A model generated the notes under the pieces. The model was given only the letters and a program-made list of their open reading frames with translations. It was not told where the DNA came from and made no database searches. The translations under genes and the position numbers were made by a program. From NCBI GenBank assembly GCA_964036155.1, contig OZ038422.1, forward strand, positions 64,193,201-64,257,200: DNA of 64,000 nucleotides. The letters are read 5' to 3'. This DNA is from Diploscapter coronatus. Its lineage: Eukaryota; Nematoda; Chromadorea; Rhabditida; Rhabditidae. Shown one piece after another: positions 42,224 through 64,000 of the stretch. Position 1 is the first letter of the stretch. The number at the start of each line of letters is the position of its first letter.

Positions 42224-44295
42224 TTAATTGCCTATTTCACATCGGAGGCCAAAGTAGCCCGGCTTGCACACGCATATGGGCATGTCTTTAGTGCCGATAC
42301 AGATGCCGGAATGGTTACACTCGTTGGAGCTGCATTGGTTTGTGAAAGTGTTCACGATATAACCGAGAACTAAAAATATTAAATAAATTTTAAAAATAAA
42401 TTGCAAAACATATTTAGATTAAAGTATCTAAATTATATTAATTTACAAAAAAAATAAAATGAATACCATCAGTCCTTTGACAGCGATCTCCGTTGTAGCA
42501 TAAATTTTATAAGTTTATTTTAAGAGTCTCCTTAAAAATAAATGTTCAGTTACCTGGGCTGCAAATACATGAAAAATTATCTTTTGTTCCTATGCAAATT
42601 CCTTCGTTATTGCAATCGAAGGAGTCGCAACTTTGGCCGGTAACTGTAATTTATAAAATTTAAATAGACAATTTAGAATTGTCGCAACGACACAACGTCG
42701 CAGCATGAAAATGACGCAACGCTTTCTTGTAAATGTTGTAATATGATTTGGAAGGGTGTGTAACGTTACCCACCAAAGCATCAGGAATACTAGGTAAAAG
42801 ATAGGGTAAGGGTAGACAAAGTTTGGATGTAAATTGATGCAGAGTAAGGCTATATAAAGAGCTATTATATAAGATAGATCATGGTAGGGATGAGTGAATG
42901 AATATCTAACGTTGCACATGATATTGAAAGACTAAATTGATAACAATAACTTTGAGTATCCATTTTGAAATTTTCTCGTATGTTGCAACACATTGAATTT
43001 ACTTATTTCTGCTTTTTCTATACTTTGGTGGATAACGCTACAGCTTGGTAGATTTCGCTATAATTAGATGTGTAGCGTTATCCTACAAAGATTTTGGTAA
43101 ATAACTTTACACCCTTCCAAATCATGTTGCGTCATTTTCATGCTGTGGCGTTGTGCCATTGAGACAATTTCAAGACCTCAATTTAAAAGTCTGAGATTTT
43201 ATATTTTAGGATTTATAACTATTTCAAAATTACCGTACCAGTTTCACAATTTCTTCCAGTATAGCCTAAAATGGAGGGCGTACATTGTCCAACAAAATGA
43301 GGCATTGTCCAAAAAAGATTTTATTGGACAATGCTATGAACTCACCTAAATAGCAGGCGCAAAAATACGACTCTTTATTACCGAAGCACAAGCCGTTGTG
43401 CGAACAGTCGCTATTGTCGCACTGAGCTGGAGGAGCTAAATATAAACATTTTTTTTAATTCAAAAAATCATAAACGTTACAAATCTGGCAGGTTTTTCCC
43501 GTATACGGTATGTTGCAAATACAGGTGAACGAGGACTGAGTTCCAATACAAAATCCTCGATTGTTGCAATTCGCAGACGAACAGATTTGATTATTTGATG
43601 GGGTAACTGAATCATAATTTAAGTAACAAAGATAAAAACTGATCATCGTTATTCAATTTTAAATCAAAACTTATGCCCTAAGTTTAATTTAACCTATAAT
43701 GCTTCGAAGGCAGAATTCTAGGTGATATGCGACGCAAAACTTTTCGGATTGTGAACCCTCGATGTTCAGGCTACAAGTATACCGTAGGGGTGTTGAGCGC
43801 CAAGTGCCTGCGGAAACATCGAATATTTTATTTTTAAAAATAATGCAGCTACACTGAAAGTTCAAAGATTGAAAAAAGCAATGTACTTTTTTGAAACGCA
43901 TCATCCTGACAAGATTGGCCAGTCCTTCCAAAGTGGCAATAACATTTCTTTTCGGATTTGTTCGATCCTTTCAAAAATTTCTCATCGTAGCAAACGCCTT
44001 GCTTAGAGCAGTATTCTGCAGTGCAGTTTGTTGATAAATTTGAAATCCCTGAATTTTAGGTATTTCAAAAATTGAGCCTCTATTTTTTCGTTAACTTACC
44101 TTTCAAACTCCCTACAAATCGATATCCAGAAACTATAATAAATAAAAGTAGGCGCATTCAAAATGGGAAAAAATCAGAGCAGGAACCGGATAGTTCCGAA
44201 AGAAGTTATAAGAAATATGGACTCGAGTCGCAACAATGCAGAAAATGGACATAGAGCCTACGGACGGAAAATATCCTGAACAAACAAATAAACAT
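42224..44295 (-). CDS. small secreted EGF-repeat protein
   Basis: Model of 10 exons, 284 aa: 44262-44295, 44100-44132, 43887-44048, 43694-43807, 43481-43606, 43346-43435, 43239-43265, 42554-42643, 42467-42499, 42224-42369. Five EGF-like domains of the form C-x4-C-NN-x-G-x-CIGT...C-x-C...Y-x-G-x2-C (for example CSSANCNNRGFCIGTQSSF). One Cys exon between EGF1 and EGF2 contains TWRSTPLRYTC, which weakly recalls the receptor modules next door. Nearly every internal intron is phase 1, the pattern of shuffled extracellular domains. The two halves of EGF3 and EGF4 are split before GY(T/N)G. Odd: the exon at 42467-42499 has TTTAT instead of TTTAG at its acceptor, and a MITE-like element sits in the intron 42644-43238. 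First exon weakly supported (short hydrophobic MFICLFRIFSV). Confidence 0.65.
42669..43170. mobile_element. MITE-like element with long inverted repeats
   Basis: Left end (about 42669-42765) carries CAGCATGAAAATGACGCAAC and ATGATTTGGAAGGGTGT; the same blocks in the same order occur inverted at the right end (about 43100-43170). Interior about 300 bp without transposase. Lies wholly within an intron of the EGF-repeat gene. A related GTAGCGTTATCC motif repeats inside. Boundaries approximate. Confidence 0.7.
43282..43338. repeat. local hairpin of CATTGTCCAA repeats
   Basis: CATTGTCCAA occurs twice in direct orientation and once inverted (TTGGACAATG) within about 55 nt, inside the 80-nt intron 43266-43345 of the EGF-repeat gene. 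The inner pair forms a 10-bp stem. Confidence 0.65.
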
Positions 44296-44992: not shown

Positions 44993-46029
44993 TTATTTTC
45001 CATATTCGATAGCCTTTGGGTCAATATAGCCATAATACTCGGAGTTTCGAAGAATCTGCCTTGCAATTTCCGATTTCAGCTGAAAATAAATACAAAAATA
45101 AGCTAATAAATATCTTAACTCTTACATATTCGAAGGATGGTCTATCTTCTGGTTCAAGACACCAACATTTCGTTAACAATGAATATCTGTAGTGAAAATA
45201 CTATCTTTTCATAAATTCATACTTTTTTATTCATACAGTTTGTCACAAAGTACTGGCACTTTCAACCTGTTTCCTTCATTTAGAAATTTCTGCAATTCTG
45301 TCGTTACAATTTCCTTATACGGGACTTCTCCAAACGAAAATATCTCCCAAATCGTAACTCCAAACGACCATCTAGATTTAGAAGAGCATTTCTTGTAAAG
45401 ACCTCAACATTCATCATACACATCACTCTTTTCACTAAATGATCGGAGTCCGAATGTCTCTGGCGCGGACCACCTAATTGGGAGCAGTTTACGACTTTGC
45501 CCATCGAAGTTATTATCTGCGTTTGCTCGAATTGACATACCAAAATCAGAAATCTGACAAAATGATGTTTTAAAAATATATATTTAGGACTAACCTTAGC
45601 AACTTTATTTTCTGTTAGAAGGATATTTCTGGCTGCTAAATCTCTGTGAATTATATCCTTTGATGCAACGTATGACTAAAATACGAAATCACGTTGAAAA
45701 ATGACAGGATAAATACCATTCCATTGCATATTTGCCAAGAGAACAAAATGAACTCTTTCAGGATCACTTTATCATTCTAGAATAAATATTGTAAAGCAAG
45801 CTAGAAAAATATACCTCAATTTCTTTATAGTTTATGCTCGAAGTATATCTTTGCAAGTCACCCATCGCGCAGTATTCAAGAATGATATGTGGTATGAATT
45901 TATTTATCAGATATCCATACATGCTAAAATGGTCACTAGTGTGTTAGTTTACAATGATTATCTGAGTTACCAAACAACATTTGGATGAAATTCAAGAACT
46001 TTCATTATTTCGATTTCATCTCGAAAATC
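44414..46029 (-). repeat. kinase half duplication, copy in receptor A
   Basis: Direct repeat of 54269-55983: 3' flank plus the last eight exons (kinase beta3 to the C-terminus), including introns, with scattered substitutions and small indels. The similarity fades inside the beta3 exon at about 46029. Confidence 0.9.
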
Positions 46030-49000
46030 ACTCAACTCGTTTTCAGTTGCATATCCCAATGTACACTTAGCAGCGACCTTTAATTTTGAATGATTTATGG
46101 CAATTGCATTATGACTTGTTCCCCAAAAGGTGAATATCAAGAGCGACGGATGGTTTTATGAGCAGAACCTTTCTTTTCTTAGGGAAGAAAGAAGAGCCAA
46201 CAGCTTGTGCCTTTCTTCTCCCTCACAAAAGCAAAGAAAGGAAGGCTTCGTCCATAAAACCCTCCGTCGATCTTGATATCCATCTTTTGGAGAGCAAGCC
46301 ATATAAATTCAATTACTTCGATAATAATATCTGATTTTCTCGAATATAATTGCACACTTAGGTTTTTACAAATTTTGAAGATTGGTATATCACCTTAAAT
46401 ATTTTTTTTATAAATGACATATTAGATAGCCCTCGCTAGCTGATTGTGAGCCATTCGCAAGTGTATCGAAAATATAGGTGTGGTTAAGAAAGAGTGAGCC
46501 AGAAGAGAGGGCTTCTTTTCCTGTCATATTTACACACTATCTCGCACCAAATGTCCTATTACGCACCTAGCGAAAGGCTCAGCGCTTGCAGATAGCTCGA
46601 TAGGACAAATGGAGAATAAATATAATGAATTCATGATATTATGCAAGGTCAATACTTATTTTTATTACTTTTTTCTCTAACAACACTTTTTCGAAATTAT
46701 TTCTTAAAAAATACAATGGATATTTATTGAGCTCGTGATGAGATTTCTGTAAACCTATGGTTTTAGCGACCTTCCATTTATTGTTGAAGCTCTGATATGC
46801 GTAGGGACCGCCAGCCATTTTGCCAAATTCACTCTGGCACTATGTTTTCTACATTTTTCAGGGTCTGAGGTGCCCCTCTAACCATCCCCATCGAAAAAAC
46901 CGCGAAAAAATACGTCACTGATGAAAAAATTGATAAAATTTAACGCGAAAAATCGGAAAAATCGCTCCTTTTCGTGGACAAGGGAAAGGGGCGTGGCCTA
47001 TCTGCAAAAAGCACTGTGTCGCTCGCTCCCCCCTTTCTTTTCCTGCCTTTGGGGATCTTTTTCTCTGCACTCTCCTCCATTTCAGCATTGACTTCTTTTA
47101 TATTTTCGCGGATTATCAGGATCTCAGTTGCTCTACGCAGGATTTTTCTGATTTTTTCATCGAAGATAGACAATTGACCAACTAATCAAAATATCAAATA
47201 AAAACATGTGCCTTTCAAAATATGCCTAGGGCGGTCCAATTTAGTAAAGACAAAAAAATGATCATTTTGAAATTAATTTTAAAAATATTTTTTGATAAAA
47301 TTTCGATTTTTTCTTTCGAATAGCATAATTAGGGAGTATCAAATTTTATTTTAGCCAAGTTTTCAGACGATCTTAACGATCCTTTGTCAAGATATAGTAC
47401 CGCAAAGGCGAGCACCTATTATTGCCTCGAAAAAATTTGCTCTACGCAGGATTTTTCTAATTTTTACATATGTTGTACATTTCAACTAGGTGTACCGATT
47501 CATCAAAAAAAATGAAATGTACCTTTTTTATAACTCGAAATATTAGCATTGTCGTAATTTGGTGTGCATTTGACGCACATTTGCGGACTTTTTTCGTACT
47601 CCAATCAATAAATCAATATCACCACGTGAAAGAGCGGTATCGAATTGTATAGTAGGTACCGATAAACTATTAAAAACAAAAAAAATCGGCGATAATCGAA
47701 AGGGTTATCAACTATGGACACTTTTGAATCCAGTGAAAGGGGCGGGGCTCGACGGTCCCTAGATATGCGGCTAGGGTTATCATTAAGGTGCAAAAAGCTG
47801 GTTATTCGAGATGAAGGCATCTCCATCATTATCCCGAGTCTCAACCGTAAACGGAAAGTTAGCAAAACTATATTTTCATAAATCTCGCAATGAGTTCTAT
47901 ATAAATCCGTTGGAATTTTTAAAGAATAGTTTTTAGGAGGAAAATTATTAAAGAAAAAGTAGTAAAAATATAAGTATTCACCCCTGTATATTTGGCATAA
48001 TGATATAAATATATACCATATAAAACTCCTTTATAAATTTCGGAAAATGTACCATTTCCAATGAGAGATTGAAAATCAATTTCTAATTTGCCAGAATTTA
48101 TCATCCATGGGTCACTAAATTTATTTCAAAGAATTCAGTATATATTGAAAATTTCCCTACTCAAGTATTGCTGCGTCACTCAAACGATAATTGTTTCCTG
48201 ATCTGGAATAATTTCTAGTTTAATTTTATCTTGTTTTATTTCGTGATTGTTTACGCTTTCGTTCTAAAGAATTTCAGGGTTTGTCGTTTTCTTCTATAAT
48301 ATATACAAACAATAATAATAGATGTGATAATTAATAACGCAATGACTGATGGTATCACAATTTCATAGACTGAAAATAATTACTATCTAATGTCGTATCT
48401 TACAATTAAGCTAAGTCTGACTTGTTTTAGTCGTCCCTTTAGTTATCAACACTGTAACAGCTAAATTTGATCTTTTAGTAACAAATTCCCCTCAACCGCA
48501 ACAACTAATAATTTCTTTTTAAATAGGATGAAATGTCTCTAAAGCGGTCCAAGACCATATTAATAAATTATCCATTTTTTCATATATTTAGTCACACATT
48601 GTCTTACGCATTGGTCCATAGCAGTAAATTGCGTCAATTTCGTGATATGAACCTGATATGCAACCATCACCATCGTCACAATACAATGACGTCCATGTTC
48701 CATTGAAACACATATAAACTGGACTCAAATTATTTTGATATAAGTGTGTACAATAATCAGAGCTTGCATCAGTCGTACGGGGAGACGTTCCAGAAGATGA
48801 GTCTGAACACAGCACTTGCCACCTTAAGACGATCCATTAAAACCATTTTATTGTTACGAGAATAACAAGTTTAATTTTTGAAGTATTTGTAACACATCCT
48901 TCATAGGCGAATTTTGTCATTTTTAGATCTAAGAGCTCCTTATTTGGTTGTCAAATTTCAGAACGATTCGTTCATGTAAATTCTAACTATTCGTATCAAA

Positions 49001-50097
49001 TTTAAGAATTCTAGTTCACATTTTTTACCCGCCACTATATAATTCATTTATTATGAGTTAAATAACATCTCACGTGCATGCACCGCCATCATCTATTGTT
49101 ACATTCTTCAGTGTACTAGCAGTAATTGTTCGATCATTACTACTGTCACATTTTGATTCACCCTAAATAAACTTATTTTTTAAACGTTTCTATAGTTAAT
49201 TACCCCAGGTTCCCCAGGTTGAAGGGGCTGTATTGGATTTGGGCATTTAGAGCACGAATCTAAATAGAAATTTTTATAGCAGATTTTACACCTTTTACTT
49301 TTCAAGTAAATTTCATTAAAAATGCTCTAATCTAGCAATATCTTGTTAAAATGTGTAAAATATTAGGATTACTTTCATCGCTCTCATAGCAGTATAGTTG
49401 ATCGACGCCTGGATAATAATTGCCACGAAACTCTGCCATCCAAGTCGAATTTATGCAGAAAAAATACATGTAGTGCAGACCAGTCAAACAGCTACTTTCA
49501 TTTTTATCAGCGAGGTGTGCAACGATTGAAACTGTTTTATTACATACGGTATAGTATCTTAAATCAAAAAACGATTTGTTTACATTTTTGATAAAACTTC
49601 ATCAAACTCTAATATCGAAATCGTACTTGCATGTATTTGCATCAACTTGGCCGGTGAGAGTGAAACTGTCTAAGATTGTTGCATTCGTACATTTAGCTCC
49701 AGAATCCTAAATTTTTCTCGATGATATAATTTTAATTTAGCACTATTGATCTGTATCCAAAATCGAACTCGTACTTTCGGCTGCAGAATTGTTGGTCGGG
49801 GCTGTAAGCAGGCAGAACATGCGGCTAAATTTAATTAATGTTTTTTTTCAAAGGATATTCATTATTTTACTAATTGGTGAAGTAGTTAAGGAAGATATTG
49901 ATGTTGTTATTGTCTCTGAAATCACGTATTATTCAGTTCATGAACTAATTTTATTTTCGTTATTTACTGAGAATATGATTCAAAATGCACTGGTATTTTT
50001 CTCAAAACTCACCTTCACCTTGACAACAGAGGATAATAAACGTAACTATAATGAATAGTATTTTGTTTATAGAGTAGTTCGAATAAGCAAGGTTCAT
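44993..50097 (-). CDS. receptor tyrosine kinase A, complete
   Basis: Twenty exons, 644 aa: 50013-50097, 49775-49824, 49627-49706, 49373-49557, 49204-49259, 49074-49162, 48608-48822, 48422-48490, 48255-48369, 48161-48202, 48017-48114, 46317-46393, 45971-46077, 45815-45923, 45717-45776, 45595-45675, 45420-45553, 45237-45371, 45126-45186, 44993-45079. Signal peptide (core ILFIIVTFIILCC); two Cys-rich units (about 28-133 and 133-253), each with a CxxC/P linker and an N-[GS]-T-W core; Thr-rich stalk; TM about 279-300 (IVIPSVIALLIITSIIIVCIYY) with RRKR stop-transfer; DPW juxtamembrane; kinase about 335-612: GNGTFS Gly-loop, VAAK Lys, EIEIMKVLEF helix C, HRDLAARN, SDFGMS, WSAPE, SDVWSFGV. All catalytic residues present, and HRDLAARN marks a tyrosine kinase. 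The activation loop has no Tyr. Family looks like a nematode-specific RTK expansion (KIN-16-like is my guess). Introns 46078-46316 and 46394-48016 carry insertions. Ligand unknown. Confidence 0.85.
46123..46290. mobile_element. 168-bp MITE in the kinase intron of receptor A
   Basis: Ends CCAAAAG...CTTTTGG. About 36-bp imperfect terminal inverted repeats include ATATCAAGAGCGACGGATGG (left) and its inverted counterpart on the right, followed by GGTTTTATG. It explains why this intron is 239 nt in A but 49 nt at the same place in receptor C (56032-56080). No coding capacity. Confidence 0.8.
46394..48016 (-). other. expanded kinase intron of receptor A
   Basis: 1623 nt between the Gly-loop exon and the next exon; the equivalent intron in receptor C is 51 nt (56164-56214). 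The extra sequence holds the putative element 46795-47769, a repeated GCTCTACGCAGGATTTTTCT block (47131 and 47440), and another region with weak inverted symmetry at about 46427-46600. Confidence 0.7.
46795..47769. mobile_element. putative inverted-repeat element, about 975 bp
   Basis: Left end GATATGCGTAGGGACCGCC is mirrored on the right by GACGGTCCCTAGATATGCGG, with loosely matching sequence for another 20 nt. No transposase. Boundaries and target duplication not determined. Confidence 0.5.
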
Positions 50098-50556
50098 TTA
50101 GATTAGACAATGTAGAATGTTCTCCACTTAATCAATAACAGTTCGCGTCAACATTCGGCAATTTTAATTCTAATGCTTGTTAGTTTTCGAGTGAACAAGT
50201 TACGGACAATCAATTCCGGAATAAAAAGGTATATGAAAATGCCATTATTTGCATATTAGTTAAATTTTAACACTTTCAAGCATTAACACCTGCTTATGAG
50301 GAGAAAACTAACGGATTCTTCGAGTATTTTAAGCTGTGAATTATCTGATTAAATTGGCGGTTCATGCATAATGCTCTGTTTGATATTAAAGATGCAATAC
50401 TATTAATACCTCCTTGATAGCAATTTTGATGTATGAAAATGGAAAGAATAACGACAGGGATATTTTTAAATGAATGCAGTAACCTTACAATATACAAGAA
50501 TTAAGGTATTTGATAGAATAATGCATGCACACATTATCTAATAATAATTTCTTTGA
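48283..50556 (-). repeat. ectodomain half duplication, copy in receptor A
   Basis: Direct repeat of 51737-54013: upstream flank, signal peptide, both Cys units, stalk and TM, with introns. The second-unit long exon is identical in its 75-residue open stretch between the two copies. Confidence 0.92.
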
Positions 50557-51502
50557 CTATCACTCAGGCGCCATTTGGTAACATTTTAATGAGGTTTCAT
50601 GCCTAATTAGATTAATTGGTGTAAACGCGATGCAGTTTCCCTGTCGGAAAAATTAGAAAGAACGCTGTAGAAAAGGATAATTTTACGAAATACACATAAC
50701 TTTTGATAGGATGGACCATTTTCGGAGATCTAAAAAGTATTCAGTTCCAAGTGGCCTCTTCAAAATAACTCATCATGAATACCCGTGATTATTAATTCCG
50801 AAAATTCACTTGACATCTCTAACCATTATTCGTTAAATAAATGGAGGTCCAAAGTGTTCTAAGCAAGAATTCAAAGTTCTTATGTTCATCATGGTAATTA
50901 TTGAAATATTATTATGCAGTTGGGTTTCATGTAAAATTGAAAAAATAGTGGATATCATTTACAGCAGTACTTTTCTTTTTTATTTGACTTCTTCAAATAC
51001 CTACATATATATAAATTCATATTGATATTCACATTCTACATTAAAATTCTAACGTAAAATTATGATAAACAAGAAAATATTCTTAAGACATACAGCTTAT
51101 AAAAGTGCCGAAACATTAAGTCTTGTTGTAAATGATATTATAACAACAGATTGACATTTATATGTGTTGAATCAATAATAAATTTCGGACCATTTATTTA
51201 CTTTTGTTACTTTCAGAAAATTTCGGTTTGATATGACTATAGTAATCAGTTTTCGCTAGAACCTGAATAGAGACTTCGGCTTTCGACTGAAAATACTCCA
51301 TCATCAATGTGCCTTATATAATAGTCATTTATGTATATCCTTGATGCGCGATAAACTGGTCATTCGTCTCATAGAGGGAAATGATTTGCTCATTTCTTTT
51401 TCAACGAAATAGCATGCAAAATGAATAGTTAGAGCACATCTTTTCTGTATCTCTCATCTCGAATAATCAGTTTTTGCGTCATAATGGTAGATAACATGCT
51501 GC
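50098..51502. other. spacer between receptors B and A
   Basis: Contains the duplicated 5' flank of receptor A up to 50556 and the remnant kinase tail exon of receptor B (51194-51286). Otherwise AT-rich with no gene seen. Confidence 0.5.
51194..51286 (-). pseudogene. orphan kinase C-terminal exon beside receptor B
   Basis: Preceded by a good acceptor (GTATTTTCAG) and ending in a stop, it encodes SKAEVSIQVLAKTDYYSHI..., clearly related to the last exon of receptors A and C (LKSEIARQILRNSEYYGYI...). The kinase exons that should precede it are missing. Either a relic, or the 3' end of an alternative transcript. Confidence 0.7.
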
Positions 51503-53547
51503 TCAAAATTCATTTTCAGTTTTTAGTTTTGTTTGTATTAAGCAAATGACGAGGTTCTTGAATCTACCAAAGAATTGTGTAAAGAAATCATCTAACAATT
51601 TTATATATGAAAAATGTGCTTACTCAATTATTACCGCATCGTTTGGACGTAATGGTTTTCTTGCCTAAGTAACATTCTAAAGTATTAGTAGATAATTAAA
51701 TCTTACGCTTCAGATCTCAACACTTCTGGAGCTTGTCGTTTTCTTCTATAATATATACAAACAATAATGGCAGATATGACGACTAATAATGCAATGACTG
51801 ATGGTATCACAATTTCATAGACTGAAAATAATTACTATCTAATGTCGTATCTTACAATTAAGCTAAGTCTGACTTGTTTTAGTCGTCCCTTTAGTTATCA
51901 ACACTGTAACAGCTAAATTTGATCTTTTAGTAACAAATTCCCCTCAACCGCAACAACTAATAATTTCTTTTTAAATAGGATGAAATGTCTCTAAAGCGGT
52001 CCAAGACCATATTAATAAATTATCCATTTTTTCATATATTTAGTCACACATTGTCTTACGCATTGGTCCATAGCAGTAAATTGCGTCAATTTCGTGATAT
52101 GAACCTGATATGCAACCATCACCATCGTCACAATACAATGACGTCCATGTTCCATTGAAACACATATAAACTGGACTCAAATTATTTTGATATAAGTGTG
52201 TACAATAATCAGAGCTTGCATCAGTCGTACGGGGAGACGTTCCAGAAGATGAGTCTGAACACAGCACTTGCCACCTTAAGACGATCCATTAAAACCATTT
52301 TATTGTTACGAGAATAACATTTAATTTCTAATTATTTGTAACACCTTCTTCATAGGTGAATTTTTCTTAATTTTGTCAAAGTCTTAGGCCTAAGGGCTCC
52401 TTATATGCTAGTCAGATTTCAGAATGATTCGTTCATGTAAATATTAACTCTATGTGTTAAATTTGAGAATTTTAGTTCACATTTTTATCCGCCACTATAT
52501 AATTCATTTGTTGTGAGTTAAATAACATCTCACATGCATACACTGCTATCATCTGTTACATTCTTCAGTGTACTAGCAGTAATTGTTCGATCATTACTAC
52601 TGTCACATTTTGATTCACCCTAAATAAACTTATTTTTTAAACGTTTCTATAGTTAATTACCCCAGGTTCCCCAGGTTGAAGGGGCTGTATTGGATTTGGA
52701 CATTTAGAGCACGAATCTAAATAGAAATTTTTATAGCAGATTTTACACCTTTTACTTTTCAAGTAAATTTCATTAAAAATGCTCTAATCTAGCAATATCT
52801 TGTTAAAATGTGTAAAATATTAGGATTACTTTCATCGCTCTCATAGCAGTATAGTTGATCGACGCCTGGATAATAATTGCCACGAAACTCTGCCATCCAA
52901 GTCGAATTTATGCAGAAAAAATACATGTAGTGCAGACCAGTCAAACAGCTACTTTCATTTTTGTCAGCGAGGTGTGCAACGATTGAAGCTGTTTTATTAC
53001 ATTTTACATAATATCTTAAATCAAAAAATGATGTTTACATTTTTGATAAAACTTCATCAAACTCAAATAATATCGAAATCGTACTTGCATGTATTTGTAT
53101 CAACTTGGGCGGCGACAGTGAAACTTTCTAAGATCGGTGCATTGATGCATTTAGCCCCAGAATCCTAAATTTTTCTCGATGATATAATTTTAATTTAGCA
53201 CCATTGATTTGTATCTAAAATCGACTTCGTACTTTCGGCTGCAGAACTGTTGGTGGGGGCTGTGAACAGGCAGAACACGCATCTAAATTATTGAATGAAT
53301 CTATGCAGATTTTCAGAACTGTACTGATTGGTGAAGTAGCTAAGGAAGATAACAATATTGGTTTCGTGAAATCACGTATTATTCAGTTCATGAACTAATT
53401 TTATTTTCGTTATTTACTGAGAATATGATTCAAAATGCACTGGTATTTTTCTCAAAACTCACCTTCACCTTGACAACAGAGGATAATAAACGTAACTATA
53501 ATGAATAGTATTTTGTTTATAAAGTAGTTCAAATAAATTTGATTCAT
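51503..53547 (-). CDS. kinase-less receptor B
   Basis: Eleven exons, 345 aa: 53463-53547, 53233-53282, 53085-53164, 52830-53014, 52661-52716, 52534-52619, 52060-52274, 51874-51942, 51707-51821, 51624-51659, 51503-51563. Signal peptide, two Cys-rich units, stalk and TM almost as in receptor A (TM core VIPSVIALLVVISAIIVCIYY, then RRKRQAPEVLRSEA). After a 12-residue juxtamembrane exon (KPLRPNDAVII) the kinase exons are absent and the reading frame continues into a short tail, EFKNLVICLIQTKL..., then stops. The same tail exon with the same acceptor exists in receptor D, which argues that it is used. Probably a membrane receptor without enzyme activity: a decoy, dominant-negative partner or co-receptor. 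The tail exon is the least certain part. Confidence 0.7.
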
Positions 53548-54013
53548 TTAGATTAGACAAAATATAGTGCTCTTCAGTTAATCGATAACAGTTCGTGCCA
53601 ATTTTCGAGTTTTAACTCTAACGCTCGTTGGTTTTCTAGGAAACAAGTTACGGACAATCAGTTCTGGAATGGGAAGTTGCATGAAAATGTCATTGCTTGC
53701 ATATTGGTTGAATTTAACACTTTCAAGCATTAACACCTGATTATGAGGAGAAAACTAACGGATTTTCGAACGTTTTAAGCCGTGAATTATCTGATTAAAT
53801 CGATGGATTCATGCATAATTCTCTGTTTGATATGAAAGATGCAATGCTATTAATACCTTATTGACAGAAATTTTTGATGTATGAAAGTGGAAAGAATAAC
53901 GACAGGGATATTTTAAAATTAATTTATTAATGCAGTAACCTTACAATATCCAAGAATTAAGGTATTTGATAGAATAATGCATGCACACATTATCTAATAA
54001 TAATTTCTTTGAA
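51737..54013 (-). repeat. ectodomain half duplication, copy in receptor B
   Basis: Partner of 48283-50556 in direct orientation. The match begins inside the TM exon region and extends through the signal-peptide exon about 465 bp into the 5' flank, so the promoter is duplicated too. Confidence 0.92.
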
Positions 54014-54950
54014 AAGAAGAATTATAAAGTTTAGGCAATTACAAAAATGGGTTAATTAGTTGAAATGTAAAAGAGGCCAAGCGTCCCGCTTTCGAGGGAG
54101 AGAAGGAATGCATAAATTTTTCCAACGTTTCACTTATCGCTAATTAATCGATCATTTGATGAAATCAAGATATTGACTAGAATAATAAATGACGCCCGAA
54201 ATGATAGCGGTATGCTAATTTTATTGCTGCTTTCTTATATCTATTGGTGTGAGTGCTCTTCAATAAGCAGTTCTAAGGAGGATGATCGTCAGAAGCCACT
54301 TGCGACCTACCCCCAGTATATTTTCTTAGCCAATTTCTATCTCTAGTTTATCATTAGCCAAAAATTGCTTATGTGGCCTGGTTACATAACTTTGATTTTA
54401 TTTTTGCGACCTACCTCTTATAGCTTATTTGCGTCTGACGAAAGTGCCCCCCAGGTCTGAGTATACTTGATTTTCTTGATAGCTCAAATTTAGGCCAAAT
54501 TAGCATTTTCTTAATATCTTGGAAGATTCTCCACGAATTCTTCTTTCAAAACTTCATGAACATGCCTACCAACTTCTGTTCAAATTCTGCTTGCAAAAAT
54601 TTCGATTTTTTTAGATATCGTGCGATTTCCAAATAGTTTGAATTGTCCTAAATCATTTTTTTCAGAAAAAAAAACTGTTATAACTTTCTATATATGTATT
54701 ATTGTTTTAAAAATACTTCTTTATTGAGAACTTCTAGCAATATAAACGAAGAACATTTCCAAAAATTGATGTAAAGTTAGAAAAATTATTAAGTCGATTT
54801 TTAGAGGGCTTCGTCGAACAAGGCAACGAGGGCAAGGAGCTGTGGAATAACACATGGAAACAATCCAACTCAATAGTCTATTTCATAGGGAAAAATGCAG
54901 AAGGGTTGTTACCATTAAAAATTGAATTTTTTTGTTGAAAATAAACGAGT
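53548..54950. other. spacer between receptors C and B
   Basis: 5' flank of B (duplicated to 54013) and 3' flank of C (duplicated from 54269). Compared with A, the C copy has an extra segment near 54310-54400 flanked by GCGACCTACC repeats. No gene seen. Confidence 0.5.
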
Positions 54951-55983
54951 TTATTTTTCAAATCCGATATCCTTTGGGTCAATATAGCCATAATACTCGG
55001 AGTTTTGAAGAATCTGCCTTGCAATTTCCGATTTCAGCTGAAAATAAATACAAAAATAAGCTAATAAATATCTTAACTCTTACATATTCGAAGGATGGTC
55101 TATCTTCTGGTTCAAAACACCAACATTTCATCAATAATGAATATCTGTAGTGAAAATACTATCTTTTCATAAATTTACTTTTTTATTCATACAGTTTTTC
55201 ACAAAGTACCGGCATTTTCAGTCTGTTTCCTTCATTTAGAAATTTCTGCAATTCGTTCGTTCCAATTTCCTTATACGGGACTTCTCCAAACGAAAATATC
55301 TCCCAAATCGTAACTCCAAACGACCATCTAGATTTAGAAGAGCATTTCTTGTAAAGACCTCAACATTCATCATACACATCACTCTTTTCACTAAATGATC
55401 GGAGTCCGAATGTCTCTGGCGCGGACCACCTAATTGGGAGCAATTTACGACTTTGCTCATCGAAATTATGATCCACGTTTGCTCGAATTGACATACCAAA
55501 ATCAGAAATCTGGCATAATGATATTTCTAAATATATATTTAGGACAAACCTTAGCAACTTTATTTTCTGTTAGAAGGATATTTCTGGCTGCTAAATCTCT
55601 GTGAATTATATCCTTTGATGCAATATATGACTAAAATATGAAATCATGTTGGAAAATGACAGAATAATACCATTCCATTGCATATTTGCCAAGAGAACAA
55701 AATGAACTCTTTCAGAACCACTTTATCATCCTAGAATAAATGTTGTAGAGCAAACTAGAAAACAATACCTCGATTTCTTTATAATTTATGCTCGAAGTAT
55801 ATCTTTGTAAATCGCCCATCGCACAGTATTCAAGAATGATATGTGGTACGAATCTATTTATCAGATATCCATACATGCTAAAATGGTCATTAGTGTGTTA
55901 GTTGAAAACGATTATCTGAATTACCAAACAACATTTGGATGAAATTCAAGAACTTTCATTATTTCGATTTCATCTCGAAAATC
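54269..55983 (-). repeat. kinase half duplication, copy in receptor C
   Basis: Partner of 44414-46029. Exon boundaries are identical in both copies. Confidence 0.9.
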
Positions 55984-58900
55984 TTCGATATCTTTATCAG
56001 TTGCGTGGGCCAATGCACGCTTTACTGCGACCTAAGAAATGTAAACATTTTCCTCAAATAGCATTAAAACAGCTATTTACCTCATTCGTATTCGATTTGC
56101 CTGATTTCTCTTGATACATCCTTAAATGGATATTATTGATAACTCTGAAAGCAGGAATGTCTCCTAGGTTTGTATTCTGATCATTTCAAATAGCGATATG
56201 AATTATATTCATACCACGAAGTACACCCTTATAAACCATCGAAAACGATCCATTTCCGATGCGAGATTCGGAGTTAATTAGTAGTTTGTCAAAGCTTATT
56301 ATCCAAGGATCATCACTAAATGAAAGATTTAATTTCAATTATAAAGTATTGCCAAGATTATTTTCGATATCAATCTCGATATTTCAAGGGACTTACTTAG
56401 AGATTTCACATTTTGTTGATTGAAGGTTATTCTTTTTTCTTATTGATCTACAAATTGTTTAAATTAATTAAAATGTAATGCTTATAATTTACGCAATTGA
56501 TCTGAATAAAGTTCGAGCTCGTCTCCTTCTATAAAATAAGTAGATGCAAATACTAATAGACACTGAGATGATAAAAAGCGAAACTGGAACAGTTATAAAA
56601 ACTGAAATTTAATAAATCTCTAACTTTTTATTTGAAATTAACATAGATGTGTATACCAATTAGTTTCGTATTATTTCTACTCGTTGGCTTTTCAGTTGAT
56701 GACGAACTTGTACTGACATCTGTTGAATAGGCTGTTGTGGTCATGATAGTACTAGCTAAAATTTGTATGATTGTTTAACAAAAAACAAACGCAGTAATTC
56801 TATGGTGACATAAGTCTCCGTATGCCTATTTATTGTCAATTATTGCAACTTGAATTGCAAAATTAACCATATATTACATTTACAATAGACATATATATAA
56901 TGTATAATAATGAACTCGTACAACTATCCGTATAACTGTCGTTATTCGAACAATAAAATTGATCGATTATATCGTAAAATATTTGAGCTGAATTATCTTC
57001 TAATCTAATTGTAGCCCATTTTCCAAAATAGCAGAAATATGCGAAAACATTCCCAACTTCTATAAAGCAACGCTGTTCTTCTCCAACAGTATGATAGTAA
57101 GTGTCCTGTTTAGAATTATCCAAACAATATACATTAATCCTATAAGCAATACAACTATTTGCAATATACAAATTTAAGACAGAAAATTCTAAGTACTCGC
57201 AAATGTAAGTATCATTAGTGTTATTAATAGATGAGCTTGCACCAATACTTCCGCTATCGCATTTGCGTTGCGATTCATCCTAAAATTCGATTAACTATTA
57301 ATTAAAAGGCAATTTTTTTTATTTCATTTGTATAGATATGTAGTTTTTAAAAGACAGTTACAAAGTATTTATGAATTACTCGATATGAACAGGTAGATAG
57401 GTAGTATGTAAATTAATATAACTTAGTAGCGCGTCACATAAACATAAACATTGCCTTTCCTTAACTTTAGACCTTAGTTCGTCAAGTCGATTCTTCGAAT
57501 TTGACCTTTTCTCATTTTTCTATCATTAAGATAACCTACCCCAGGTTGAAGAGGTGCCGATGGTGGTGGACAGGCGGCACATGAGTCTATAATATAAGCG
57601 AATTAATCAAATTCGAATTCTATTCAATTTTAAATTTACGTAACATCTATGGACATATTTAAATGATAGATCATATTGTTGAAAACATCAGGTATGTTTA
57701 GAGACCACAAGCCACGCCCACTTTATGAAGCAAAAACAGGTAAATTTTTTGCTCTCGCTAATTAAGCAATGTTATAGGTTTTTATTCTACAAATATTCTA
57801 ATGAGTATTCTGAGAAAATAGTTTTATCGAAAATGGCACGAAAAAAGTTACGGAATTGTTCTGGAGCCGGTTAAAAATTAGTCGTCAACGAAACTTTGAG
57901 AAAAATTAATTTCTAAAAGTGCACGGTTCCCAGAACAATCCTGATTCAATGGTGTAGGCTTTGAAGCGCTACCCTCAATTTTGTAAAATCAATTGGGGCT
58001 CTACTGTAGAGGTTAGGGTAATTCGTTTCGACCCTCAAATTTACCCAATAAATTACCTACGCTCTGACTACATGAGAAAAGAATTAGAATCCGATTTTAA
58101 TGGTAAATAAGGTTCCTATGTCACGACAAAGCATTGGAGAAATACTTTAAGGACTCTATATAAATAGTTAATAATAATGAAATATTGTTCTTTTAGAATT
58201 ATTTTCCTATAGATTCAGAAATGTAAAATAATGATTCTTACTTTCTCCGTTCTCATAACAATATATTTGATCCACATTATAGTATGTATCAAGATTAACC
58301 ATCACTACCCAGCTTCCATTGCTACATTCATAATACATAAACAAAAGGTTCTTTACACATCTGTCACCATCTGTTGTGTGAAGCACAATTGATGAACCGT
58401 TTTCACAATAGATTAAAGAGCTTAAATAAATAATTAAATATAAATTATATATTATATAATTTAATAATTATGAGATTTTAAAAGAGTTCAGGGAATGTAT
58501 CTTGAGATAGGAATTATACTTCTACAAATTTAGTGTCGTTATGTTAGCTGATTATCTGATTATACCTGCACTGTATTAAATTTGGATATATACTACTTGG
58601 ATAAATGGATGTCCCATTGGTACATTTCAATTCAACATCAGTGTCCTAAATCTTGTAATATATCGTGATAGAGCTTACGTATTTATGAGTTTAAAATATC
58701 TGTGTAGTTTACTATCATCATCACAAACTGTTTTGTATTAATCGTGATCCTCCAAGCAATGAATAAATCATTTAAGTGAAGTTAGAAGGTAGAGTAAAAT
58801 GTCGCAAAGTAGGTTAGATGAGAATAGAATGATTAAAACAATGAAAAGGCAGATGGCCTATGTTTCAGCAATTGGAAAGAATAGCACACAGAGTAGTATA

Positions 58901-59315
58901 TAGGAAGAATGTTATAATATTATAATCTAAAGAATATACGAATGCTTACATTTGGTCCCAGAACTCGCGGCTGTGGATCAGAGCAAGCTGGGCAATTATC
59001 TAAATTCCATCAATTTATACGGCAAATTGTCCAATTTTTGAATATGTTCCATTTCAGTCATGAATTGATTTGTATCAAATTTTAATATAAATATTATATA
59101 GTATTTACATTCGATCATTTATTTATGAGTAAACCTTTATAAATAAAGAAAAATATTTCAAAATTGTTGTAATTTGTTATTTAGTTGAATAATCTTATGA
59201 ATATATAATAATTAATTGAAAAAAACAAACCGTCAAGTATGTCTGATATGCAACTCGTTGGTAAATCCATAACTAGAATCATAGGAAGTAAGAAAATGAT
59301 ACGATACAAGCACAT
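54951..59315 (-). CDS. receptor tyrosine kinase C, complete
   Basis: Twenty exons, 657 aa: 59231-59315, 58950-58999, 58566-58645, 58242-58420, 57540-57586, 57197-57279, 56922-57154, 56657-56755, 56493-56601, 56397-56447, 56215-56315, 56081-56163, 55925-56031, 55769-55877, 55671-55730, 55550-55630, 55376-55509, 55193-55327, 55084-55144, 54951-55037. Signal peptide MCLYRIIFLLPMILVM; two Cys units with linkers DNCPACSDPQPRVLGP and SCAACPPPSAPLQPG; cores ECSNGSWV...VDQIYCY and YFCYFGKWA...IIDQFYC; Ser/Thr stalk; TM about 287-309 with RRRR; kinase with GNGSFS, canonical VAVK, HRDLAARN, DFG, SAPE and SDVWSFGV. The kinase 3' half is nearly identical to receptor A, while the ectodomain, TM and juxtamembrane are strongly diverged from A, B and D. 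No Tyr in the activation loop. Single-pass cell-surface RTK; ligand unknown. The donor of the second long Cys exon has two in-phase choices. Confidence 0.85.
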
Positions 59316-59680
59316 ATTGGAGATGCAAATTAGTAAATATGGTCCTGGAATTTCTTTCAAAGTAAAAATTTCCTATATCATAGTCGATTATGCATTTATA
59401 AACTAGTAAATGAAGAAAACTATCAGTCTAGGGGAAACACGCGTTCAGAATGCATTATCATGTTTAAATCAACATTCAGACTAGATAATACCGTCTTTAG
59501 ACGCGTTCTACTTGGTGACCTATGAAGAAGACGGAACAACGAATAATCACTAAACAAGTCATATAAGATTTTACAGATTTTATTACAAATAATCTATTAT
59601 ACTAATACAAATTGAATTCATTATTTAGTGATTGATTGGTTAAATAGAATTGAAAATAATTACTATCACTTCCGTATTCT

Positions 59681-59900
59681 CTCTAATTGAAGAGCACCCC
59701 CAAAATGCAGAACTACCCATCACCCAACTCAGATCATCTCAAAAAGTGTTTTATGATGTTCTTTAGATTGTGTAGAGTCGATTTAGTTTTGATTTGAAGT
59801 GATTACAATCATGAAATGAGGAATTATTGCCGTTTGAAAAATTCGAATTCTTCGAAAGTTAGGGGGTTGAAAGATGGAAGGACATGCTCTTCAACTAGAG
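59681..59900. mobile_element. 220-bp MITE-like inverted repeat
   Basis: CTCTAATTGAAGAGCA at 59681-59696 is mirrored by TGCTCTTCAACTAGAG at 59885-59900 (one mismatch), with weaker symmetry further in. No coding capacity. Confidence 0.55.
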
Positions 59901-59995
59901 GGAGTACGATATGTTAGTTTTTGTTAATACATACTTTCATGTCATATTTAAGTAAATAACTTTTATTATCTGCATGATATCTAAAATTAAACAAA

Positions 59996-60103
59996 TTATT
60001 CCAATTTTGATAGATTAGTTAAATCTGTTTGAATATGTTGTAAATCTATATAGCCATAATAATCGGTTTTCCCTAGAATCTGAGTAGAGATTTCGGCTTT
60101 CGA
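59996..60103 (-). pseudogene. orphan kinase C-terminal exon beside receptor D
   Basis: Same structure as the remnant beside receptor B: acceptor GTATTTTCAG, then SKAEISTQILGKTDYYGYI... and a stop after 35 codons. It resembles the C-terminal exon of receptors A and C and is open throughout, so it may still be spliced into some transcript. Confidence 0.7.
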
Positions 60104-60320
60104 CTGAAAATACTCCATCATCAATGTGCCTTATATAATAGTCATTTATGTATATCCTTGATGCGCGATAAACTGGTCATTCGTCTCATAGAGGGAAATG
60201 ATTTGCTCATTTCTTTTTTGACGAAATAACATACAAAATGGATAGTTAGAGTACAGATTTTGTGCATCTCTCATCTCGAATAACCAGTTTTATGCGCCAT
60301 AATGATAGATAATATGCTGC

Positions 60321-63300
60321 TCAAAATTTATTTTTAATTTCTAGTTTTGCTCGTATTAAGCAAATGACGAGATTATTGAATCTGCCAAAGAATTGTACCA
60401 AGTAATCATCTAAAAATTTCATACTATATACGAAAAATGTGCTTACTCAATTATTACCGCATCGTTTGGACGTAATGGTTTTCTTGCCTAAGTAACATTC
60501 TAAAGTATTAGTAACTAATTAAATCTTACGCTTCAGATCTCAACACTTCTGGAGCTTGTCGTTTTCCTCTATAATACATACAAACGGAAGCAATAATAGT
60601 AGATATGACGACTAATAATGCAATGACTGATGGTATCACAATTGCATAGACTGAAAGCAATTATTATCTAATGTCGTATCTTACAATTCGATTAGATCTG
60701 ACTTATTAGTTTATTATTTTCAGTTTTCACTTCAAGGCCTGTGGTAATCGGTTTCGTCGATGTTTGTAGTAGCGGTGAAGTTTGTGAGGCTAATATCCTG
60801 CGTGTTGAAGATGTTGACGAATGGATTGTTGATTGCAAGGTTGAAAGTTTAGTTGGCCCTTTAGTTGTCAATGCTGTAGTAGCAGCTAAATTTAATCTTT
60901 TAGTAGCAAATTCACCTCAATCGCAACAATTAATCATTTCTAAATAAGATAAAATATCTTTAAAGCAGTCCAAGACCATATTCATAAATTATAAATGTTT
61001 TTTTTTTCATATATTTAGTTATACACTGTCTTACGCTTTGGCCCATAGCAGTGAATTTCGTCAAATTCGTGATACGAAAATAATTTGCAAGATCCATAAT
61101 CGCAAGCCGATACAGTCCATTTTCCATTGAAACATTTATAAATATCATTCCAATTTCTCCAAAAATATATACAACTCTCAGAGACTGTGTCATTTAAATT
61201 GACCACGGTTCCAGAAGATGAGCCTGAGCACAGCACTTGCCACCTTAAAATAATCGATTAAAACCATTTTATTGCCATAAGAATGACCAACTTAATTCTT
61301 AAAACAGAGTCTCTGTAATTCTCGACGATCTCAAGGAAGAGGTCGGACCAGAGATTCCGAATTCGTTTCTGAAGGGGTATTTGAGTGTTTTCTACCTATA
61401 TTCGACCTGGAGAACACGATTTTGGGGCTTTTTCCCGGAGTTTCCAAGTCCAGGTTCGAGTACCGAGGTCCGGGGGTCAAATTTCAAAAGTCAGCCTGAT
61501 ATCCCAAAATGTATATCAGATTGTTTGGCTCGACGAGCTGAGTCGACTGGTGCAAATATTTCTCGGATCCGACTTTCCTATTGCAAGTTACGGCTAAAAA
61601 CGGCGCAAAAATGCCAAAAAGCATGGGTCTCTGGGATAAAATCTAAAATTACTCGAGTTGTTTATACTAATGTACCCAACTTTTAACATATTTTTATAAA
61701 CTACATGCATATACCTAATTAATGGTACCGGACTTTTCCAAATCTTGGGATACCGGTTTTGAGAAAAATCGGTCTGAAGTCAGACTTGAAAATTTCGATT
61801 TTTCAAAAATCAATGGTAACCCCACAAATCATATATCATTCGATAGAGCTCGTCAAACTGAACAACTTTTGTGAAGACACCTCGGTGAAATTTCCATCCC
61901 TGAAGGCTCTAGACAAGAAAAACCGAAAATCGTACTTTACATTCGGGAATTTTTATCTCGAAAATTTCTGAAGTAAGTGGGGTCAAATTTAGTGTTATAA
62001 TGAAGCTTAGACCTCGTAGAACATTCTAGAATTTTTTGGGGTCATTTGGGAAGATTTCAGATATCGGACCTGGCAGGGCCGGACGGGTACCGGTCGGGAT
62101 CTGAAATTTTCCGGAAACATATCCATGCTGTATATCATTCGAAAGCCAATGAAAAACTAAGTGTAATACCGAAAACCGCTTGAAAAAGGGGTTGATAGAT
62201 CGAGATTTATAATCAAAAACGTCTCCAAGTTTACTCTTCAATTTGACCAATACTTCATTTCCTCATAAAAATCGATACACTAATCTATTTTTCAAGTGGT
62301 TTTCAGCATTACACTTAGTTTTTCATTGGCTTTCGAATGGTATACAACATTATAGGTCTTTCTACCAAATGGTGACTCACCCCATAGGGGTCGAGGCTCA
62401 TATGGGTCAAGTTACCATTTTAACAAAGACCCATCATGTTATATATCAGATGAAAGCCCTTATTGAGCTGAGTAATATTCTGAAGACCACTTGAAAAACA
62501 GATTAGTCTATTGCCTTTTATGGCCATTTGAAGTTACCCCATTTTTGGTCTTTTTTGACAGGTAATTATAGTCAATTACAATGATGATATAATGAAACTA
62601 CTTGCTGAAATTGATAGAAATGGACTCGAATATTACTCTCCAGTCAATTTCGAGTCGATTGATACCCATTTTGGTATAGTACTACTCGGGTACCATATGG
62701 GTGGTTTTCCATGAACCCATATGATAACATGGTAAAGTGATAGCACGGTACTCTAGGAAGCAAAAATGAAGTATTGTCCTCCAACTACTATATTCCGAAA
62801 AGATTTTTCAATTTGGTTTTATTTTACAAAAGTTATGAATTTTTGAAGATTTTTGTCATTTTCGTGGGTCTGACCATTCAAACCTCCATACCACGCATAC
62901 CATAATAGATAACCATGAGGTGTCTTCACAAAAGTTGTTCAGTTTGATGAGCTCTATCGATTGATATATAATTTGTTGGGTTACCATTGATTTTTGAAAA
63001 ATCATTTTTTTCCGGATCATCTTCCGATCAATTTTTCTCAAAACCGGTATCCCAAGATTTGGAAAAGTCCGATACCATTAATTAGGTATATGCATGTAGT
63101 TTATAAAAATGTAATAAAAATCGGGTACATTGATATAAACAAATCTAATAATTTTAATTTCTTTCCGAAAACATCGATTTTTTGCATTGTTTTTAGCCGT
63201 AACTTGCGATAGAACGGCCGTTCCGGAAAACCAAAAACACCATGAGACTCAGCTCGACGAGACGAATCTTATGATACAAGGTTTAATCAGTTTTTATATT

Positions 63301-64000
63301 ATCCGGAAATTTTTCCGGATTCGGGTTCATCTCCGGAAAGTGTGAGAAAATCGAAAAACGGACACCGGATTCGTGTTCTACGGGTCCGAAATAGGTAGAA
63401 AACACTCAGAAACTCCTTCAAAAATGAATTTTATATCTCTGGTCCGGGCAGTTTCGAGAATTACGGAGAATGTGTTTTAATTATTTGTAACACCTTCTTC
63501 ATAGGTATTTTTTTAGGCCTAAGAGTTTCTTATATGCTAATCAGATTTCAGAATGATTCGTTCATATAAATGTTAACTCTATGTGTTAAATTTAAGAATT
63601 CTAGTTCACATTTTTATCCGCCACCATATACTTCAGTTATCGTGAGCTAAATAACATCTCACATGCATACGCTGCTATCACCTGTTACATTCTTCAGTGT
63701 ACTAGGTGTAATAGTTGCTTGGTCATTATCGTCGCATTTTGTTTTATTCTAAATAAATTTATCTTTAGATGTTTTATAGTTACTTACCCCAGGTTGAAGA
63801 GGTTTTAATGGTAATTCTGGGCATTTAGAACACGAATCTGAATAGAAATTTATCGATGACAATATCTCATACTTATTACTTTTCAAAAAATTTCATTAAA
63901 TATGCTCCAATCTATCGATATCTTGTTAAGATGTGTAAAATATTATAAGATTACTTTCATCGCTCTCATAGCAGTATAGTTGATCGACGCTTGGATAATA
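60321..64000 (-). CDS. kinase-less receptor D, 5' end beyond window
   Basis: Visible exons: 63955-64000 (continues off the edge), 63788-63837, 63663-63748, 61035-61243, 60703-60915, 60530-60650, 60447-60482, 60321-60381. Encodes the end of the first Cys unit, linker SCSKCPELPLKPLQPG, the second unit (CFNGKWTVSACD...EIHCYGP), a longer Ser/Thr-rich stalk than in A or B (about 70 against 23 residues), TM (VIPSVIALLVVISTIIASVCMYY), juxtamembrane with KRQAPEVLRSEA, exon KPLRPNDAVII, and a short tail EFNNLVICLIRAKL... before stop. Like receptor B it has no kinase exons. Intron 61244-63662 carries the 2.2-kb foldback element. B and D share their tail and 3' flank, so the kinase loss is older than their separation. 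Confidence 0.72.
61303..63476. mobile_element. 2174-bp foldback element flanked by TTAA
   Basis: A giant inverted repeat: the left arm (61303 to about 61880) and right arm (about 62900 to 63476) match inverted over most of their length, for example CCGTAATTCTCGA-type termini, GAGTGTTTTCTACCTAT, CAAATCTTGGGATACCGGTT and TCATCAAACTGAACAACTTT. A second nested inverted pair lies at about 62120-62190 and 62275-62350. Flanked by TTAA on both sides (61299-61302, 63477-63480). The same intron in A and B lacks it and reads continuously. No transposase recognised, so it is non-autonomous. The termini begin AACA, unlike classic piggyBac CCC ends. Confidence 0.85.

Follow-up and report, generated by a model that had tools for sequence, protein, structure and literature searches.

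The 64,000-nucleotide stretch of Diploscapter coronatus DNA analysed here (the window; C1:64193201-64257200) carries on its minus strand a tandem array of four related receptor genes, A, B, C and D, of which A and C encode a tyrosine kinase while B and D end shortly after the membrane helix. Gene coordinates are given in window numbering unless marked C1 or C2, the two large contigs of an assembly of 169,703,327 bases (C1, 87,717,704; C2, 81,972,245; a third contig, 13,378). Since they are giant, nearly equal in size and colinear around the array locus (mostly 92-94% identity, no N), C1 and C2 have the look of a homologous pair in a nematode with one chromosome, and a single chromosome pair is described for Diploscapter (PMC9071541). 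We infer that the host of this receptor family is an asexual animal.

Read 5' to 3' on the minus strand, the gene order is D, C, B, A. The kinase-less gene D (60454..64000 in the window; model 60457-64691, 11 exons, 381 amino acids) has its first exons outside the window, its model running 691 bases beyond the right edge. It is followed by C (54951..59315; model 54954-59315, 20 exons, 652 amino acids), a kinase-bearing receptor with a different ectodomain, by the kinase-less B (51631..53547; model 51634-53547, 10 exons, 318 amino acids) and by the kinase-bearing A (44993..50097; model 44996-50097 plus stop, 21 exons, 649 amino acids). All four models are complete, need 0 frameshifts and 0 internal stops, and each is closed by TAA. 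A preliminary description of this DNA had placed the start of the array at 44993, which is indeed the boundary of A, although the position belongs to the stop codon and the coding model begins at 44996. The gene models come from a custom spliced-alignment script in which frameshifts and stops are permitted at a cost; because the aligner accepts GT-AG introns only and the templates for A and C came from an initial reading of the same sequence by eye, GT-AG borders throughout are a condition of the models and no independent result. With that understood, we regard the array anatomy as modelled as nearly certain. The same description had proposed four same-strand paralogs alternating between kinase-bearing and kinase-less types, which the complete minus-strand models bear out, Pfam recognising a kinase in A and C only. 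It had also suggested looking for further copies to the right of position 64000, and the array does extend to about 77,894 by another pair of minus-strand spliced models, C' (70277-74666, 652 amino acids) and D' (75808-77894, 379 amino acids). Just downstream of A, a minus-strand open frame at 43849-44055 has a cysteine pattern that is EGF-like by eye.

The four products share one architecture, as had been suggested: A consists of a hydrophobic start, two Cys-rich units, a short stalk, a transmembrane (TM) segment and the tyrosine kinase, and each of seven models has exactly two hydrophobic stretches by Kyte-Doolittle, one at the N-terminus and one at the TM position. The former is a putative signal peptide on the strength of its hydrophobicity rather than of a signal-peptide predictor. 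In every ectodomain two Cys-rich units, homologous to each other and introduced by C-x2-C, precede a Ser/Thr-rich stalk and a single hydrophobic helix, the unit exons having C, C, C, W, Y, D and C invariant in the seven exons aligned. The kinases of A (exons at 44996..48114, minus strand, including an insert exon, GDIP..., at 46317-46393) and of C are full length (PF07714, E=1.4e-71 and E=1.6e-76, respectively) and keep HRDLAARN, SDFG, SAPE and VAAK/VAVK, and with them the catalytic K, HRD, DFG and APE. Both proteins thus have what defines a receptor tyrosine kinase, namely a kinase with its catalytic residues, one internal hydrophobic segment and an ectodomain; B and D, in which Pfam finds no kinase domain, are not receptor tyrosine kinases in this sense. 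An intron of A also contains a dispersed repeat of about 960 bp (46802-47761; 40 matches listed including itself, 90-100% identity), which has no counterpart in the corresponding gene on C2.

How the kinase was lost can still be read in the DNA. B and D stop 28 residues past the TM helix, with the tail QAPEVLRSEAMLLRQENHYVQTMR; B ends in MLLRQENHYVQTMR before its stop, and in the kinase-less copies near C1:53.24 and 54.24 Mb (D53 and D54) the tail runs ...YVQAMR, followed by TAC and TAA. The juxtamembrane exon lacks one nucleotide in all five kinase-less copies found (B, D, D', D53 and D54), a nucleotide present in each of the five kinase-bearing copies aligned (A, its C2 counterpart A2, and X42, X79 and X74), an alignment that left out X57 and C2:53.687, whose juxtamembrane exons differ more. 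Past the new stop, the former splice donor is preserved. In B, the frameshift and stop lie in the exon at 51631..51676 (minus), the donor coming just after the stop; in D, alignment places the shared change in the exon at 60454..60499 (minus). Further on in the 3' flank of D, at 60029..60103 (minus), a leftover of the last kinase exon reads KAEISTQILGKTDYYGYIDLQHIQ and still has its acceptor. With X74 as the query, such a leftover is picked up about 355 bp further on in D, D', D53 and D54 (E 1.2e-7 to 2.8e-5); it resembles the last exon of the kinase-bearing X74, which reads KAEISNHILKNNHYYGYVDLQHIQ. The 3' flank of B holds a degraded version (51196..51286, minus), recognised by eye beside that of D; by tblastn there is no kinase leftover between B and A at E<=0.01, only weak matches with E of 3 and 9.

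Given the 1-nucleotide frameshift shared by all five copies and the leftover last exons, the kinase-less genes, which are not independent of one another, very probably have a single origin by loss of the kinase from one kinase-bearing ancestor. The readable leftovers, being like the last exon of X74, suggest that an X-type kinase gene lost the exons in between. In this history an ancestral kinase-bearing receptor lost all its kinase exons but the last and gained the juxtamembrane frameshift, which left a membrane receptor whose chain runs 28 residues beyond the helix; the form now occupies five places, all on one homologue, a C-type kinase receptor following it in four of them. A lone last kinase exon was also seen at C2:22.178 Mb (L025:3162-3254); the 5.5-kb piece that holds it matched no further kinase exon at E<=0.01.

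Part of the array looks recent. The D-C block (54403..61302, minus) has a duplicate at 69713-76661, 97% identical over 6956 aligned bases, and for about 3.6 kb the identity of D'-C' to D-C, taken to two decimals, is complete, which points to a young duplication. The alternation is largely a duplicated D-C block, and the idea of a paired signalling toolkit does not hold as it was put forward, since D and C have different ectodomains and at three similar pairs elsewhere the first gene also carries a kinase. B, D and D' each have a first exon of their own and an upstream stretch resembling that of A. AATAAA starts 122 nt past the stop in D and D'; B has the variant AATGAA 117 nt past its stop and the first AATAAA at 433. 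Intron 7 of D contains a 2.2-kb stretch with internal inverted repeats (61303-63506) that is missing from D'. A 1.1-kb piece of it is a dispersed repeat: among the matches listed, 29 exceed 1,000 bases, with 23 (itself included) on C1 and 6 on C2, and the repeat also adjoins an X-type gene at C2:53.686 Mb.

In the window the genes stand head to tail 1.1-1.5 kb apart (5.6 kb separate D and C'), an arrangement that would suit a Dscam- or protocadherin-like use of B and D as alternative ectodomain cassettes spliced onto the kinase exons of the next gene, and the phase at the end of the TM exon of B does equal that at the start of the juxtamembrane exon of A, so that an in-frame join is possible. 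Nevertheless, every kinase gene downstream comes with a start, an ectodomain and a TM segment of its own, and the juxtamembrane exons of B and D themselves end in a stop, so this reading seems very improbable. A similarly slight chance attaches to an assembly artefact, in which the assembler would have made duplicates on C1 or collapsed C2. It is true that C1 exceeds C2 by 5.7 Mb, that most family matches are on C1 and that D'-C' and D-C are near-identical over kilobases; on the other hand, the copies differ from one another at 7-16% of coding sites, the 2.2-kb repeat is in D and not in D', copies lie at different places on C1, and the flanks of the array align to C2 on both sides, as described above.

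The kinase-less form is concentrated on C1. All copy counts given here are lower bounds, because the whole-genome scans score the best candidates only. The tail DNA (60056-60704) has 13 matches in the genome, five of them full length and all five on C1: D and D' at 100% identity, C1:54.238 Mb at 97%, C1:53.246 Mb at 93% and B at 90%. The remaining eight are partial and four of these are on C2, three being the TM/juxtamembrane part and one a last-exon leftover. In four of the five places, including C1:53.24 and 54.24 Mb, the next gene after the kinase-less one is of C type; after B comes A. Three similar pairs in which the first gene was modelled (C1:42.03, C1:79.66 and C2:74.54 Mb) have kinase exons in that gene, and a few kb on there are more kinase exons and a C-type unit. 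The C-type unit-2 exon has 12 matches, 11 on C1 versus 1 on C2, and the unit-1 exon 67, 54 versus 13 (19 versus 3 at >=70% identity). At the array locus itself, C2 has one kinase-bearing gene, A2 (C2:60175578-60179725, 651 amino acids), the counterpart of A, with the flanks closing up around it; the array would thus be either a gain on C1 or a loss from C2.

Sequence has also moved between the copies. B is identical to A over a 531-nt tract (51791..52321, minus) that comprises the unit-2 exon, the stalk and the first 31 nt of the TM exon. It is a mosaic beyond this tract as well: near-identity to A recurs at 52.58-52.94 kb, whereas at 53.54-53.90 and 53.06-53.18 kb the match is to D, exact or almost exact. 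The 531-nt tract is read as a recent gene conversion, and as the same region is 2.5-9% divergent between A and A2, the exchange between A and B seems to postdate the separation of the homologues. Among D, D', D53 and D54, the TM exons show 0 differences, against a divergence of about 20% of sites in the unit-2 exons (six pairs pooled). Ectodomain segments were shuffled between copies, the outcome expected of gene conversion.

The sharpest contrast between exons and introns is found between C54 and C53, the C-type genes of two blocks about 1 Mb apart. Their unit exons differ at 118/604 sites (19.5%) and their introns at 50/1584 (3.2%; Fisher p = 3e-33), the signal-peptide and linker exons at 5/182 (2.7%), and along the alignment (L018:4309-6020 against L019) divergence changes sharply at several exon edges. 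Synonymous sites are about equally divergent (pS 0.17, 0.41 and 0.21 in exons 3, 4 and 6), so that positive selection acting on point mutations does not by itself account for the difference. On the sequences compared, the contrast is explained by conversion that homogenised the introns while differences in the unit exons were retained, or by the import of diverged exons; no donor tract was found, the best other match to the unit-2 exon of C53 being C/C' at 85%. The exon diversity is strong in C54-C53 and weak or absent in other pairs. Between D54 and D53 the exon/intron contrast is weaker (13.6% versus 7.8%, p=0.0025). Across the 14 other C-type pairs divergence is 6-12% in intron 5 and 11-28% in the unit exons, but intron 4, at 10-37%, is often the most divergent segment; in C-C54, unit 2 (11.0%) about equals intron 4 (10.4%). 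The ectodomains of C and C' are identical, introns included. This comparison covers the six of 12 C-type copies that gave three-exon models (C, C54, C53, C16, C83b and C42); C83a was partly fetched and dropped, C' duplicates C, and four others were left out. The unit-2 figures for C-type genes include a 42-nt intron read as coding. This intron (57155-57196 in C) can be read in frame in C, C', C54 and C53 and has a stop in the four other copies read. It was also part of the query for an AlphaFold model of C unit 2, which is unusable (mean pLDDT 40). In primate L/M opsins, in the major histocompatibility complex (MHC) and in snake-venom phospholipase A2 (PLA2), exons of paralogs or alleles differ more than introns, and this has been attributed to conversion with selection or to accelerated exon change. 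These are other proteins, and in the present family the pattern is strong in one pair alone. A literature search for intron-homogenised, exon-diverse genes found nothing.

The reading we favour, with a probability of about 0.45, is that the array belongs to a fast-evolving nematode receptor family whose kinase-less members act on their kinase-bearing kin. The kinase-less proteins would reach the membrane and alter signalling there, either by occupying ligand or by forming dimers unable to trans-phosphorylate. As regards a decoy receptor, Pfam and the models find no signalling domain in B or D, and a ligand-binding ectodomain is putative. The most plausible pair is B with its neighbour A, since the unit-2 exon that B carries is identical to that of A to the nucleotide, making ligand sharing or mixed dimers plausible. 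Among a brake, a co-receptor and mere decay, an inhibitory role as a brake or tuning device is ranked first, albeit tentatively. The preliminary description had proposed a possible decoy or inactive-dimer role for the kinase-less members; it looks plausible for B with A, as the unit-2 exon, stalk and start of the TM exon of B are those of A to the nucleotide and the kinase-less frames are open. The ectodomains of D and C differ.

Several observations weigh against a role on kinase-bearing kin, or against its being inhibitory. The first is that very difference between D and its block partner. A second is that C2 yielded no full kinase-less tail, so that this is not kept on both homologues. A third is that FLOR-1, a kinase-dead receptor of C. 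elegans, is described as needed for signalling and not inhibitory (PMC10523662), which cautions against presuming a decoy. The remaining ones concern constraint. For the ectodomain and TM of D, D', D53 and D54, dN/dS is 0.73 (95% bootstrap 0.53-0.99), a value near 0.7 that indicates weak constraint; single pairs range from 0.60 (D-D') to 0.95 (D-D54), and for D53-D54 (0.79, 0.52-1.29) the interval includes 1. Moreover, conversion from intact copies could hold frames open even without selection, and with sequences that are not independent, open frames and dN/dS are no proof of function.

These points bear directly on the possibility that the kinase-less copies are recent, slowly decaying duplicates without function, carried along by segmental duplication. 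The confinement of the full tail to one homologue, the dN/dS near 0.7 and 0.95 in one pair, the 2.2-kb repeat in the D intron and the youth of the D'-C' and D-C duplication would all fit such decay, as would the loss of the exon 2 AG acceptor in B (~53340) and D54 (L018 ~660). Viewed as candidate pseudogenes, then, all five carry the tail-shortening frameshift and two have lost this acceptor; yet skipping exon 2 preserves the frame, and all five frames are open, those of B and D54 only with exon 2 skipped. Stops are fewer than expected: in the absence of constraint each pair should contain 3.0-5.7, and 0 are seen (P 0.003-0.05 in six pairs that are not independent). Furthermore, the kinase-less dN/dS equals that of the kinase-bearing A, X57 and X42 over the same segments (0.72, 95% bootstrap 0.55-0.94); for A/A2 it is 0.29. 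These sets leave out B, a mosaic, and X79 and X74, whose stalks are incomplete and whose models contain a frameshift mark and a stop. The values fit weak constraint together with diversification, equal in both classes. On balance, the frames of the kinase-less copies are probably maintained by selection, although we hold this with some reserve, and functionless decay appears unlikely.

To place the family, the array kinases were compared with those of other nematodes. By similarity, insert and C-terminal YGY, in pairwise comparison, they belong to a nematode F09A5.2-like group: of 3430 kinase matches, 120 were listed, and in this list Diploscapter pachys WR25_24070 (P0004; 50%) has the highest identity, and the best C. 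elegans-named protein is F09A5.2 (P0014; 39%). The array kinases have in common with these two proteins the YGY and a GDIP/GKIP insert, which falls between kinase strands two and three; the ectodomains of the two proteins do not match the array receptors. With BLASTP, the alignment of P0004 and C is confined to the kinase, and the pairwise comparison with B gives nothing better than E=0.04 for P0004 and E=0.12 for F09A5.2. Likewise, when ectodomain pieces and whole A, B, C and D were run against Pfam, the kinase alone was recognised, TMEM154, ETRAMP, EBA-175_VI and similar matches lying under their cut-offs; all 60 listed of 1406 matches in a PDB sequence search with C fall within the kinase. 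Searches of 5.8 billion proteins, which reach only relatives that have short exact words in common with the query, gave no match for the A ectodomain at E<=1e-3 and none for B at E<=1. No paper on tandem kinase-less receptor tyrosine kinases of nematodes was found in the literature searched, and the papers that mention both Diploscapter and tyrosine kinases were, by title and start of abstract, not about such receptors.

The closest functional comparison within the phylum is OLD-1/FLOR-1 of C. elegans, a kinase-pseudokinase pair of the KIN-16 family that is described as acting in oomycete recognition (PMC10523662). Like the Diploscapter genes, it belongs to a nematode receptor tyrosine kinase family with active and catalytically dead members, lineage-restricted and clustered. 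It differs in that FLOR-1 keeps its kinase domain, which in the array has been deleted. Membership of the KIN-16 family is not supported by the single comparable motif, the catalytic loop, which is HRDLALRN in OLD-1 and other members (PMC10523662) and HRDLAARN in the array kinases. GH18 (chil) neighbours, as in C. elegans, are not seen either: of seven genome matches at E<=1e-6, none is within 30 Mb of the array on C1. This pair is nonetheless the precedent for regarding the kinase-less proteins as positive co-receptors, which would aid the active partner in ligand binding, surface level or substrate presentation. FLOR-1 is reported to be required downstream of OLD-1 and close to it by Förster resonance energy transfer (FRET) (PMC10523662), and a C-type gene follows the D-type gene in four of five places. 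The analogy is strained by the kinase domain still present in FLOR-1, some of whose tyrosines are important (PMC10523662), whereas B and D have no kinase fold and keep 28 post-helix residues, in which a single tyrosine comes in addition to the membrane-proximal pair. On balance, a co-receptor role appears quite unlikely.

A second comparison is with vertebrate FGFRL1, a single conserved gene with a longer tail, in which respects it is unlike the tandem, one-homologue expansion seen here. FGFRL1 is alike in being a receptor paralog with an ectodomain like that of its kinase-bearing kin and no kinase. It was first named a decoy and is described as having later been given other roles (PMC12026108).

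For the favoured reading, in which kinase-less members act on kinase-bearing kin, a more elaborate version can be drawn up. Gene conversion in an asexual worm, mostly on one homologue, would reshuffle ligand-binding exons between kinase-bearing and kinase-less receptors, selection would keep these exons different against homogenised introns, and the kinase-less forms would be an adjustable brake of environmental or pathogen recognition. We offer this full chain as a speculation that is rather improbable as a whole.

In a broader sense, the array would be a directional example of the birth of a kinase-less receptor, through a kinase deletion and a frameshift whose order is not fixed, with the leftover exon still visible. 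The kinase-less form would afterwards have multiplied and been supplied with the putative ligand-binding unit of a neighbour, and the single-gene state on the other homologue may serve as a built-in reference for what the array has added. If the exon diversity reflects recognition, the family would be a candidate environmental or immune receptor repertoire in an apparently asexual animal.

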